A stretch of DNA of 56,310 nt from Synechococcus lacustris str. Tous (GTDB taxonomy: Bacteria; Cyanobacteriota; Cyanobacteriia; PCC-6307; Cyanobiaceae): contig NZ_PXVC01000017.1 of the NCBI RefSeq assembly GCF_003011125.1, positions 1-56,310 on the forward strand, written 5' to 3'. This document shows positions 1,784 through 5,813 of this stretch, piece by piece. The number at the start of each line of letters is the position of its first letter. Position 1 is the first letter of the stretch. The notes under the pieces were generated by a model. The model made no database searches. It was not told the origin of the DNA and saw only the letters and a list, made by a program, of their open reading frames with translations. A program made the position numbers and the translations under genes.

Positions 1784-3055
1784 TCAGTTTGGAGCAAGGG
1801 CCCACCAGCTTGTGAGGGCAGCGGCAAGGGCTAGGGCCCCATGGCTGCGATGGGTGCCCCCTTGGCTAAACAACACATAGGGTTCCCGCAGGGGGGCATC
1901 GGCGGAAAATTCACTGGTGCTGCCATCGACAAAACTGCCGCCTGCCATCAGCAATTCGCTTGCATATCCAGGCATGGGCGCGGGCACAGGCTTTAGGTAA
2001 CTCTCAACGGGAGAGCAGCTTTGGAAAGCATTGCAAACCACCTGTAACGCCCTGGGATCGCCAAATTTCACCGCTTGAATCACATCGCTGCGGGCTGCCC
2101 CCGCTAGGGGTTGCACCTCTAAAGCTTGATTGCTGAATACCTGGGCGATTAGATCAGCATTGATCAAAGCTTCCGCCACCATTTGGGGAGCGAGAAATAA
2201 ACCCTGAAATAAAAGGCGATGTAAATCAAAACCACTGCCGCCGGCTGAACCGATCCCAGGGGCCGTGAGGCGGCAGCAAGCCTGCTCCACTAATTCAGCC
2301 ACGCCAGCCACATAGGCACCACTGGGAACAATGGTGCCACCGAGGTTTTTGATCAGGGAACCAGCGATTAGATCGGCCCCCACAGCGGTGGGTTCCTCAA
2401 ATTCCACCAATTCGCCATAGCAGTTATCAACAAACACCAACACACCTGGCTGGATTGTTTTCAGCTGCTCCACCAGCCGGCCGATCTGAGCCACTGAAAG
2501 CGAAGGGCGCCAGCTGTAGCCGCAACTGCGCTGGATCAACACCATGCGGGTTGGCTGGCTGAGGGCATCGCTAAGGCCCAGCTCATCCACATGGCCCTCG
2601 CCAGTGAGCGCTAATTCGCTGTATTGGATCCCAAATTCCGCCAGGGAGCCCTGGCCGCTGCCGCGGATGCCGATCACCTCCTCCAGGGTGTCGTAGGGGC
2701 GGCCTGTGATCGATAGGAGCCGATCACCAGGGCGCAACACCCCAAACAGGGCAGCGGCAATCGCATGGGTGCCGCTCACAAATTGCAAACGCACTGCGGC
2801 CCGCTCCGCCCCCAGCACCCTGGCAAATACCCGATCAAGGGTGTCGCGGCCCTGGTCGTTGTGGCCGTAGCCATTCACCGAAGCAAAGTGATGGCTGCCA
2901 AGTTTTTCGGCTTGGAAAGCAGCCAACACCTTGGCTAATTGGGGTTGCACCGCTGCGGTGCGCTGCTTTGCAGCAGCTTCCAGCTGGGCTTGGGCGGCCG
3001 CAACGGCATCCCAGGCGGCGGGGCTTGCCTCGGGCCAGGTGGGATAGGAGTACAA
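1784..3055 (-). CDS. Methionine gamma-lyase/aluminium resistance family PLP enzyme
   Basis: 423-residue fold-type I PLP-dependent enzyme of the family annotated as aluminium resistance protein or YnbB (Pfam PF06838), related to cystathionine/methionine gamma-lyases. Supporting segments are FVSGTHAIAAALFG, where cofactor phosphate is bound, VFVDNCYGELVE with the aspartate that contacts the pyridine nitrogen, and SLIKNLGG with the likely Schiff-base lysine. The C-terminus has YVLFSQGGTHRSHG, typical of the family. The longest frame begins with a TTG at 3055, which suits the family length. The physiological substrate of cyanobacterial members is not settled. It is the first gene of the minus-strand unit leading into gcvH-gcvP; a link to glycine metabolism is suggested only by position. 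Confidence 0.85.
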   Translation of the reverse strand: MYSYPTWPEASPAAWDAVAAAQAQLEAAAKQRTAAVQPQLAKVLAAFQAEKLGSHHFASVNGYGHNDQGRDTLDRVFARVLGAERAAVRLQFVSGTHAIAAALFGVLRPGDRLLSITGRPYDTLEEVIGIRGSGQGSLAEFGIQYSELALTGEGHVDELGLSDALSQPTRMVLIQRSCGYSWRPSLSVAQIGRLVEQLKTIQPGVLVFVDNCYGELVEFEEPTAVGADLIAGSLIKNLGGTIVPSGAYVAGVAELVEQACCRLTAPGIGSAGGSGFDLHRLLFQGLFLAPQMVAEALINADLIAQVFSNQALEVQPLAGAARSDVIQAVKFGDPRALQVVCNAFQSCSPVESYLKPVPAPMPGYASELLMAGGSFVDGSTSEFSADAPLREPYVLFSQGGTHRSHGALALAAALTSWWALAPN

Positions 3056-3127
3056 AACAAAAAATTGCTAACCACTAACCACATTCCTGCAGCGGTGGCA
3101 CCCTCGATACCGTTAAATTTGAACCTT

Positions 3128-3183
3128 CAGTTGTTTTAAACAAAACAAGCTGGTTTCCCCGGTTGCAACAACTGGGCTTTTTC
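3128..3183 (+). promoter_or_regulatory. Possible transcription attenuator in the desaturase leader
   Basis: Three mutually exclusive pairings can be drawn in 55 bases just before the desaturase. CAGTTGTTTT at 3128-3137 can pair with AAAACAAGCTG at 3142-3152 (one bulged G). The same segment can instead pair with AACAACTG at 3167-3174. The latter also forms the right arm of a terminator-like hairpin, CCCGGTTG (3158-3165) with CAACTGGG (3169-3176), loop CAA, followed by CTTTTT. No plus-strand gene lies upstream for this hairpin to terminate, and the T-run is only on the plus strand. The arrangement resembles a terminator/antiterminator switch. Seen by eye; no folding energy was computed. Confidence 0.45.
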
Positions 3184-3194
3184 TGGAGATTCAA

Positions 3195-4124
3195 TTGGTT
3201 GCCGCTGCCCAGCCTTCCCCTAACACCTCTTTGAGTACCGCCGCATTAAGTGAGCAAGAACTGCAGGAAAGGCTGTATGCCAAGCGCAACCCGTTGCCGC
3301 CAAAACAAAGAAAGCTAAAAAAAGGCACCTTCTTGTTCATGCTGGCCAACCATGTGGGGGCCGTGGCGGCACTGCTGCCGATGTTTTGGAGTTGGTGGGG
3401 ACTACTGGCTTTTGCAAGCCTCTATTGGGTAACAGTGCTTGGCGTAACCCTTGGCTTACACCGATTGGTGGCCCACCGCAGCTTTGAAACGCCCCAATGG
3501 TTGGAGCGCCTGCTGGTGTTGATGGGCACCTTGGGTGCCCAAGGTGGGCCGGTGGAATGGGTGGGTTTGCATCGTCACCACCACAAATTTTCCGACCAAG
3601 AAAACGACCACCATGATGCCGGCAGGGGTTTGTGGTGGGCCCATAGCGAATGGATGTTGCACAACATCCCTGCCCTGGAACATGTAGATAAATTCACCGG
3701 CGACCTGCGCCGCGATCCCTTCTACAACTGGTTGGATCGTTGGTTTTTATTGCTGCAGTTACCCCTTGGTGGGCTGCTCTATTGGTTTGGCGAAGCAAAT
3801 CAAATCCACGGCGGTGGTTTAGGCCTAGTGCTTTGGGCGATACCCCTAAGGCTCACCGTTGTTTATCACGTTACCTGGCTTGTTAATTCAGCCACCCACG
3901 TATTTGGCTATCGCAATTTCGCCTGCCCAGATCGCTCAACCAACTGCTGGTGGGTGGCGCTTTTGAGCTTTGGTGAGGGCTGGCACAACAACCACCACGC
4001 CTTCCCCCATTCCGCCCGCCACGGCTTGCGTTGGTTTGAATTTGATATCACTTGGCAACACATCAAAGTGCTGCGGCGCCTTGGCCTTGCCCGCAAGTTG
4101 CGCCTTGCCCGCTATCCCGGTTGA
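3195..4124 (+). CDS. Acyl-lipid/acyl-CoA desaturase (delta-9 type), first copy
   Basis: Membrane di-iron desaturase of 309 residues that introduces a double bond into membrane fatty acyl chains, as in cyanobacterial DesC. Three histidine boxes are visible: HRLVAH near residue 90, HRHHH near 126 and HNNHH near 264. Hydrophobic segments precede the first box and lie between the second and third. The start is a TTG; GGAG at 3185-3188, six bases upstream, supports it, and no ATG occurs before the membrane domain. The leader may hold an attenuator (3128-3183). The gene ends convergently with the next gene, overlapping it by 13 bases. A paralogue lies about 0.8 kb downstream. Regiospecificity cannot be read from the sequence. 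Confidence 0.92.
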   Translation: MVAAAQPSPNTSLSTAALSEQELQERLYAKRNPLPPKQRKLKKGTFLFMLANHVGAVAALLPMFWSWWGLLAFASLYWVTVLGVTLGLHRLVAHRSFETPQWLERLLVLMGTLGAQGGPVEWVGLHRHHHKFSDQENDHHDAGRGLWWAHSEWMLHNIPALEHVDKFTGDLRRDPFYNWLDRWFLLLQLPLGGLLYWFGEANQIHGGGLGLVLWAIPLRLTVVYHVTWLVNSATHVFGYRNFACPDRSTNCWWVALLSFGEGWHNNHHAFPHSARHGLRWFEFDITWQHIKVLRRLGLARKLRLARYPG

Positions 4125-4789
4125 CGCAAACGATCCAATAACTTATCCACGCTGGGAAAGTTAATCTCCAACGCATTAAGCGCTGTTAGCAGTTCTGGTA
4201 ATTCCAGATCCAGTTCACTGGCGTTGTAATCCTGGAGGCCAGCCATCACAGCGGCAAATTTTTCGCGGCGCTGCCGCTTTTCAACGCCATAGGCCGCCAT
4301 TACCCGGCCGCTGCACTTACGCCAGGGCTGGCCAGCCGCGAGCAGATCAGCCAAGGCAGCGCTTAGGGCTGGGGATTCCGCTTCGCTGATGCGCAGATCA
4401 AAACCAGGGGGAAGGGGCCTTAAACCAACAAAGATTTCCAGCAATTCACCAGCGCCTAACACCAGGCCAGCGGCATCGATTAGGGCATGGGGAGCTGCCC
4501 CGATGCCATCGCTTAGTTCCTGCTGATCGGCAATTTCGGCGAGGGGGATCGGCGTTTGCGCTAACCACTTGTTGCAGCAGCCGAGGGCAAGGAACACCTC
4601 TGGGCCAGGGGAAGCCAACTTGCGATTGCGCAGATTTGAGAGCTGGGAGCTGTGCAACCTGCCAAGATCTAGGCGCTCCGCCAGGGCTGGCAGCACCCTG
4701 TGGGACCAGCCATTGCGTTCATGCCAGGCCCTCAAAAGGGCAGCAAAAGCGCCGTGGCCATGCTCCAAGCGCTGGCGATAATCCACCAA
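4112..4789 (-). CDS. Conserved hypothetical protein, possible helix-turn-helix
   Basis: 225-residue soluble protein, not assigned to a named family with certainty. The N-terminal 70 residues include LDLGRLHSSQLSNLRNRKL, which looks like a helix-turn-helix of the XRE kind followed by a segment ending FLALG; this is inference from residue pattern. The C-terminal half is helical and rich in leucine and charged residues. The start is TTG at 4789 or the adjacent GTG at 4786. It lies between two desaturase genes, convergent with the first (13-base overlap) and divergent from the second across a 115-base region with three related inverted-repeat half-sites. A regulatory link to the desaturases is possible but unproven. 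Confidence 0.7.
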   Translation of the reverse strand: MVDYRQRLEHGHGAFAALLRAWHERNGWSHRVLPALAERLDLGRLHSSQLSNLRNRKLASPGPEVFLALGCCNKWLAQTPIPLAEIADQQELSDGIGAAPHALIDAAGLVLGAGELLEIFVGLRPLPPGFDLRISEAESPALSAALADLLAAGQPWRKCSGRVMAAYGVEKRQRREKFAAVMAGLQDYNASELDLELPELLTALNALEINFPSVDKLLDRLRQPG

Positions 4790-4802: not shown

Positions 4803-4812
4803 GAATTCGTAT
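4803..4812. promoter_or_regulatory. Outlying half-site related to the desaturase operator candidate
   Basis: GAATTCGTAT here is the exact reverse complement of ATACGAATTC at 4888-4897, the right arm of the larger inverted repeat upstream of the second desaturase. It lies 14 bases upstream of the start of the divergent hypothetical gene, where binding of a shared regulator could affect that gene too. Assignment as a protein-binding site is inference. Confidence 0.35.
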
Positions 4813-4857
4813 GCAGCTCAGCTTAATGCTCCTCCACACCCAAGTCCCTGCTTAATC

Positions 4858-4898
4858 CGAATACGTATTGCTATGATTTGATGATCAATACGAATTCG
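4858..4898. promoter_or_regulatory. 13-base inverted repeat upstream of the second desaturase
   Basis: CGAATACGTATTG (4858-4870) and CAATACGAATTCG (4886-4898) are inverted repeats matching at 12 of 13 positions, separated by 15 bases. The spacer holds TATGAT at 4872-4877, a plausible -10 element. The left arm itself contains the palindrome AATACGTATT. The right arm ends 6 bases before the desaturase ATG, and no Shine-Dalgarno sequence is evident. It could be a repressor operator covering the promoter, or an RNA hairpin covering the initiation region. The sequence cannot decide between these. Confidence 0.5.
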
Positions 4899-4904
4899 AT
4901 CTGA

Positions 4905-5813
4905 ATGACCAGCGCAGCATTCGCCAGCATTTCCCCCCCCAGGCGCTCCCCCAGCCTGGGCAACCCCCGCAAAGGCGAGCAAGCGGGCACGGTGCCAAAG
5001 GGCGCCCGCTGGGCCACCCTCGGTTTCATGCTGGCAATTCATCTGTTGGCGGCCTATGCCCTGCTGCCCCAATTTTGGAGTTTGCCGGCCCTGGCTTCTC
5101 TGCTGGTGCTCTATTGGCTCACGGCCTGCCTCGGCGTAACGATTGGCTATCACCGCCTGCTAAGCCACCGGGCCTTTCGCCTCCCCCAATGGCTAGAGCG
5201 CTTCTTTGCCACCTGCGGCGCCCTCAGCGCCCAACACGGACCAATCGATTGGGCAGGCCTGCACCGTCATCACCATAAGTTCTCCGATACGGATGCTGAT
5301 CACCACAACAGCCACCGGGGCTTTTGGTGGAGCCACATGGGCTGGATGTTCCAGGAAATCCCCGCCATGGCCTCCGTGCCCAGGCTCACTGGTGATCTGG
5401 CCAAAGATCCCTACTACCGCTGGTTGAACAAGTGGTTTCTGGTTTTGCAGTTACCCCTTGCCGGCTTGCTTTTTTGGATCGGCAGCGTAACCGGCGCCGG
5501 CGGCTGGGCCCTGGTGCTCTGGGGCATCCCCCTGCGCTTAGTACTTGTGTATCATATCACTTGGCTTGTGAATTCCGCCACCCACTGCTGGGGCAGCATT
5601 GCTTATCCCAGTGGTGATGGCTCCCGCAACAACCCCTGGGTGGCTGCACTCACCTTTGGTGAAGGCTGGCATAACAACCACCACGCCTTCCCCCACTCCG
5701 CTAAGCACGGTTTGCAACCGGGTCAAATCGACCTCACCTGGCAACACATCCGCCTTTTAAAGGCCCTAGGCCTTGCCACAAAGGTGCGCTTACCAGCTGG
5801 TGCCGTAGGCTGA
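4905..5813 (+). CDS. Acyl-lipid/acyl-CoA desaturase (delta-9 type), second copy
   Basis: 302-residue paralogue of the desaturase ending at 4124. It has the same order of histidine boxes: HRLLSH near residue 83, HRHHH near 120 and HNNHH near 256. The central and C-terminal parts align almost block for block, including LVLWGIPLRL and LTFGEGWHNNHHAFPHSA, while the N-terminal 40 residues differ. It acts in the membrane on fatty acyl chains, with a likely ferredoxin electron supply (family knowledge). The ATG at 4905 directly follows the inverted repeat, which suggests regulation different from the first copy. rplI follows 40 bases later on the same strand. Different acyl positions or temperature regimes for the two copies are inference. 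Confidence 0.92.
   Translation: MTSAAFASISPPRRSPSLGNPRKGEQAGTVPKGARWATLGFMLAIHLLAAYALLPQFWSLPALASLLVLYWLTACLGVTIGYHRLLSHRAFRLPQWLERFFATCGALSAQHGPIDWAGLHRHHHKFSDTDADHHNSHRGFWWSHMGWMFQEIPAMASVPRLTGDLAKDPYYRWLNKWFLVLQLPLAGLLFWIGSVTGAGGWALVLWGIPLRLVLVYHITWLVNSATHCWGSIAYPSGDGSRNNPWVAALTFGEGWHNNHHAFPHSAKHGLQPGQIDLTWQHIRLLKALGLATKVRLPAGAVG

Follow-up and report, generated by a model that had tools for sequence, protein, structure and literature searches.

A two-hairpin desC1 leader with a putative weak terminator in the picocyanobacterium Synechococcus lacustris

Terminator/antiterminator pairs in mRNA leaders are found in trp/his-type attenuators and in riboswitch expression platforms, and hairpins that stabilise a message from its 5' UTR are known from the E. 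coli ompA type. Cyanobacteria are without Rho, and in S. elongatus just 22% of transcription units end at sites made of a hairpin and a U-tract (PMC13289151). In the same study, a canonical intrinsic terminator is defined by a 30-nt MFE below -10 kcal/mol together with 4 or more U in 8 nt (PMC13289151). The cyanobacterial RNA thermometer of hsp17 is a hairpin that buries the ribosome site and the start codon (PMC4477652). With regard to desaturases, the marine strain Synechococcus WH7803 possesses a core DesC3, which responds mainly to UV, and a DesC4, which is strongly responsive to low temperature and is absent from warm thermotypes (PMC7393227).

The locus described here lies in a 56,310-nt contig (NZ_PXVC01000017.1, hereafter the window) of Synechococcus lacustris str. 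Tous, a picocyanobacterium of the Cyanobiaceae, and was compared with relatives from Synechococcus, Prochlorococcus, Cyanobium and Vulcanococcus. The gene desC1 (3195-4124, forward strand) encodes a delta-9-type fatty acid desaturase (Pfam PF00487) and begins with a TTG at 3195. It is patchily distributed, with a match of at least 69% identity in 25 of 37 family genomes, and several complete genomes have the second desaturase type only (52-59%). On the basis of this distribution and of the WH7803 work (PMC7393227), desC1 is probably DesC4-like and accessory. Upstream lies a divergent gene of the Met_gamma_lyase family (1784-3055, reverse strand), so that, as the initial annotation had noted, there is no upstream gene in need of a terminator. 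Downstream, an ORF that matches neither Pfam nor NCBIfam (4112-4789, reverse strand) is followed by a second desaturase (4905-5813, forward strand). Between these two divergent genes there are three near-copies of GAATTCGTATTG, namely GAATTCGTATGC, GAATACGTATTG and the inverted CAATACGAATTC (4803-4814, 4859-4870 and 4886-4897), which look like operators. In the congener G001 (L148, G001:C13:160000-176000), the second desaturase, its neighbouring ORF and the Met_gamma_lyase family gene lie side by side.

A predicted -10 box, TAAATT (3114-3119, forward strand), places the transcription start at about 3126 and gives a predicted leader of about 70 nt. With this start, which is not downstream of 3137, the first pairing segment would stay in the transcript. 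The first hairpin, hp1, lies on the forward strand at the predicted 5' end of the mRNA (3128-3152, in which 3128-3137 pairs with 3142-3152); A3147 is bulged, there is one G-U pair, and the folding energy is about -6.5 kcal/mol. The second hairpin, hp2 (3158-3176), resembles a terminator and has 8 pairs (5 G-C, 2 A-U and 1 G-U) closed by the loop CAA. It is followed by C3177, by a run of five T (3178-3182) and by the Shine-Dalgarno sequence GGAG (3185-3188), all on the forward strand. All the pairings that the initial annotation had claimed are present in the sequence, with small corrections of coordinates. The 5' arm of hp2 is at 3158-3165 as described, and its 3' arm is at 3169-3176 rather than 3167-3174. 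The latter segment is instead an arm of the alternative pairing, in which CAGTTGTT (3128-3135) forms 8 Watson-Crick pairs with AACAACTG (3167-3174) and which had been proposed as an antiterminator; we judge it not to be functional, for the reasons given below.

The 30-nt segment ending at the U-run folds at -10.6 kcal/mol in the window and at -10.3 kcal/mol in the sister species Synechococcus sp. Cruz CV12-2-Slac-r (G003), narrowly below the published energy limit, and T5 in both species provides at least 4 U in 8 nt. Since hp2 with T5 falls within the published definition (PMC13289151) and since 8 of 8 pairs and T5 are kept in G003, the terminator-like reading of hp2 and T5 is supported. The terminator would be weak at best, because a terminator score of a published type, computed here, is about zero (-0.4 if scoring passes over the C ahead of the T-run and -27 otherwise); the same score is +1.2 in G003. 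It also counts against a terminator that the T-run has just 5 bases and adjoins the Shine-Dalgarno sequence. As a 30-mer, hp2 has a z value of about -2.4, and 6 of 200 shuffles fold equally well. A simple scan finds 3 terminator-like sites in 500 nt against an expected 1.2 +/- 1.1, the hp2 site having the longest stem. As genome background we used 189 kb of the same genome with 156 ORFs, where hairpins with a T-rich tail lie no more than 100 nt ahead of an ORF start at 4 sites, that of hp2 included; none of the other three has a stem as long as that of hp2 or a T5. Similar T5 tails are found on likely gene-end terminators of these 189 kb, and a gene-end explanation for hp2 is excluded because the upstream gene is divergent. 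Like the canonical terminators of S. elongatus PCC 7942 (PMC13289151), hp2 is a GC-containing hairpin just below -10 kcal/mol with at least 4 U in 8; it differs from them in standing directly before a Shine-Dalgarno sequence and not at a gene end, and in having a U-run of only 5 preceded by a C. For this one genus, then, a weak terminator in the leader, formed by hp2 and T5, is plausible.

Our tentative preference, held at somewhat less than even confidence, is for a leader of two hairpins, the second of which would be a weak and leaky intrinsic terminator and would lower desaturase output. According to this explanation, the desaturase mRNA leader of about 70 nt would fold into two independent hairpins, hp1 at its 5' end and hp2 upstream of the Shine-Dalgarno sequence. 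The second hairpin and U5 would then act as a leaky terminator that frees some polymerases before they reach the coding region, and this early release would result in less desaturase.

Three other genomes of the genus were compared, and a readable desC1 leader is present in G003 only. The gene is absent from G001, a 95%-complete congener, and no desC1 match was found in G002 (76% complete). This leader has retained its -10 box and spacing, both hairpins, T5, the Shine-Dalgarno sequence and the start. The -10 box TAAATT is identical (6/6) and its distance to the start codon nearly equal (74 and 75 nt in the two species). In G003 hp1 is a hairpin of equal shape with an arm identity of 17/21, and hp2 has an arm identity of 13/16, with all 8 pairs kept despite 3 substitutions in the arms. 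As read from the alignment, pair 3161-3173 changes from G-U to A-U (one-sided), pair 3165-3169 changes from G-C to U-G (two-sided), and the remaining six pairs are identical. Identity is 3/8 in the spacer, 2/5 in the linker, 13/13 from the Shine-Dalgarno sequence through the start codon, and 60% in both the upstream DNA and the early coding DNA; the hairpin arms are thus better kept than the spacer, linker, upstream or early coding DNA.

This pattern bears on the explanation that the hairpins and a T5 next to the Shine-Dalgarno sequence arose by chance in an AT-richer spacer and owe their presence in the sister species to common descent alone. The leader z value in the window is only about -1.9, the 3 terminator-like sites against 1.2 expected are compatible with chance, and the leader is found in two species only. 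Against this, the arms are better conserved than their flanks, a two-sided change preserves pairing, the leader z value is -3.8 in G003, and the excess of structure extends over the family (see below). We therefore regard chance as improbable. Outside G003, a search for leader DNA similarity in 99 relatives found none that keeps the leader. One 25-nt leader match in another genome (G024) was ruled out, as it belongs to another locus. A search of 400 family genomes for the T5, Shine-Dalgarno and TTG motif gave no equivalent leader among the matches inspected, most of which are not gene starts; the pattern was slightly stricter than the spacing or sequence of G003, which it therefore missed. A scan of viral contigs returned distant desaturases only.

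The initial annotation had further proposed a two-state switch, in which pairing of 3128-3135 with 3167-3174 is the ON state and which senses temperature, a ligand or the speed of RNA polymerase. We calculated energies for the transcript from 3126 to the end of the T-run, comparing the terminator state with the best fold that has no terminator. The folding energies speak in part for the switch, as the best such fold in the window is indeed the proposed antiterminator with an inner hairpin, yet at 37 C it reaches -13.4 kcal/mol against -17.4 kcal/mol for the terminator state. An 8-pair helix between the upstream segment and the 3' arm of hp2 is also rare, occurring in 1.6% of upstream shuffles. 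However, a gap as small as that of the window is found with 28.6% of shuffled upstream sequences and is not unusual. In G003 the gap is 8.7 kcal/mol at 37 C, and 3 of the 8 antiterminator pairs are broken there (3131-3171, 3133-3169 and 3134-3168, read from the alignment). The terminator part of the proposal is therefore borne out by its conserved arms, whereas the arms of the antiterminator are not kept. The terminator arms, being adjacent, should also snap together first, and no known aptamer was matched. With respect to temperature, the advantage of the terminator in the window grows from 4.0 kcal/mol at 37 C through 4.9 at 15 C to 5.3 at 5 C; this state remains the favoured one throughout 5-45 C, and folding of the leader up to the T-run over this range revealed no flip. 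Since cooling stabilises the terminator, a simple thermal switch would lower expression in the cold, which is the wrong sign for a cold-induced desaturase. A conserved alternative fold is absent, and the two-state switch is not supported; we consider it very improbable.

As in leader attenuators of the trp/his type and in riboswitch expression platforms, the putative terminator of desC1 stands in the leader of the gene that it would regulate, and the window offers a possible alternative pairing. The desC1 leader differs in that this pairing is not conserved and the terminator is favoured at every temperature, and neither a leader peptide nor, with riboswitches in mind, an aptamer was recognised in it. 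No known riboswitch class had been evident in the initial annotation, and in agreement with this no Rfam family matched the leader at gathering score: a search of the window found a tRNA elsewhere only, and the leader alone reached at best 14.8 bits against the 49.5 needed. An RNA thermometer with a buried Shine-Dalgarno sequence or start codon was likewise not found in the leader. Given the predicted start at 3126, GGAG lies outside hp1 and hp2 and pairs weakly with 3177-3180 in the 37 C fold. Stronger sequestration of the Shine-Dalgarno sequence, by 3120-3130, was ruled out, as that segment is mostly upstream of the predicted start. At 15 C another fold appears that draws in early coding bases, and its partner bases are changed in G003. 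Cyanobacterial hsp17 (PMC4477652) resembles desC1 in having a short hairpin leader, and differs in that the desC1 Shine-Dalgarno sequence is outside both hairpins.

Across the family, desC1 leaders (mean z -1.28, n = 73) are more structured than a control set of other leaders from these loci (mean z -0.44, n = 106; Mann-Whitney p = 1.6e-5, an optimistic value as the sequences are phylogenetically related). Relatives in other genera mostly have a -10-like box (TA-R/C-ATT or TAAGTT) 48-91 nt ahead of the start, and most desC1 relatives have a GGAG-type Shine-Dalgarno sequence and a TTG start. The TTG, as TTGGTY, follows such a Shine-Dalgarno sequence in nearly all relatives with a placeable start (L034-L113), and this conserved weak start may itself limit desC1 expression. 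The hairpins differ in sequence by lineage and are mostly without a T-run. Prochlorococcus-like leaders have CCGCTC/GAGCGG in one locus (L043) and CCACTT/AAGTGG in another (L053), with compensatory changes visible, and RCC307-type leaders have two adjacent hairpins (z = -4.0 for L040). A hairpin with a T-rich tail in a fitting place was seen in two Cyanobium loci (L108 and L112) besides the window and G003; two further hits were discounted, one having a TTT tail and the other overlapping the -10 box. The two Cyanobium loci carry their terminator-like hairpin and T-rich tail independently, about 28-58 nt ahead of the desC1 start.

Because only two related species carry the hairpin with T5 and the leader hairpins of most relatives are without a T-run, hp2 may serve another purpose. 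The hairpins could act post-transcriptionally, hp1 blocking decay that depends on the 5' end, hp2 keeping the ribosome site open or tuning stability, and the U-run being an unstructured spacer. The hairpin-rich, lineage-specific leaders of the family, their excess of structure and their compensatory changes argue for such a role, and in Synechococcus 7002 control of desaturase mRNA was attributed to mRNA stability, possibly involving RNA structure (PMC3468840). In that strain, however, the transcript of desC itself is unchanged with growth temperature (PMC3468840), and T5 directly 3' of hp2, which such a role does not need, is kept in both species. The arrangement is similar to that of the ompA type, with a hairpin at the predicted extreme 5' end and another upstream of an accessible Shine-Dalgarno sequence, although the desC1 leader is shorter and has U5 after its second hairpin. 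On this evidence a post-transcriptional role is a possibility that we take seriously while considering it rather unlikely.

Vulcanococcus-type freshwater picocyanobacteria have a conserved 77-nt element in the desC1 leader (L044:2822-2899, L050:2875-2947, L110:2893-2965 and 12 more loci in one alignment). It consists of CCAGGCC-N2-TGGTGCGCAG, then a hairpin that varies and shows apparent compensatory changes, and then AGCGAA-CCGGAGCCTGCGCA just before the Shine-Dalgarno sequence. One such leader, searched against Rfam, gave no match, and a covariance model of the Vulcanococcus-type leader had no hit in the window or its genome. Two genomes from other genera of the family each have a single copy of the element, which again lies upstream of desC1. 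The element may be a new structured leader, and its sequence is not related to that of the window's leader. A broader idea, to which we give little credence, is that picocyanobacterial desC1 leaders form a fast-evolving class of cis-RNA in which a hairpin near the Shine-Dalgarno sequence is kept and its sequence rebuilt in each lineage, as an attenuator in the genus of the window and possibly as a ligand-binding form in the Vulcanococcus-type element.

Returning to the weak leader terminator that we tentatively prefer, any regulation would act through termination efficiency, mRNA decay or the promoter and not through a two-state switch, because there is no conserved alternative fold. The desC1 leader is a modest, fairly ordinary regulatory leader and not a demonstrated sensor, and a leader terminator alone would not show temperature sensing. 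It is unsettled how cyanobacteria, in which no transcription factor for this is obvious, set their desaturase levels, and a role of mRNA structure has been proposed (PMC3468840). A leader with conserved hairpins, with a putative weak terminator in one genus and other hairpins elsewhere, offers a concrete and testable element for this question.
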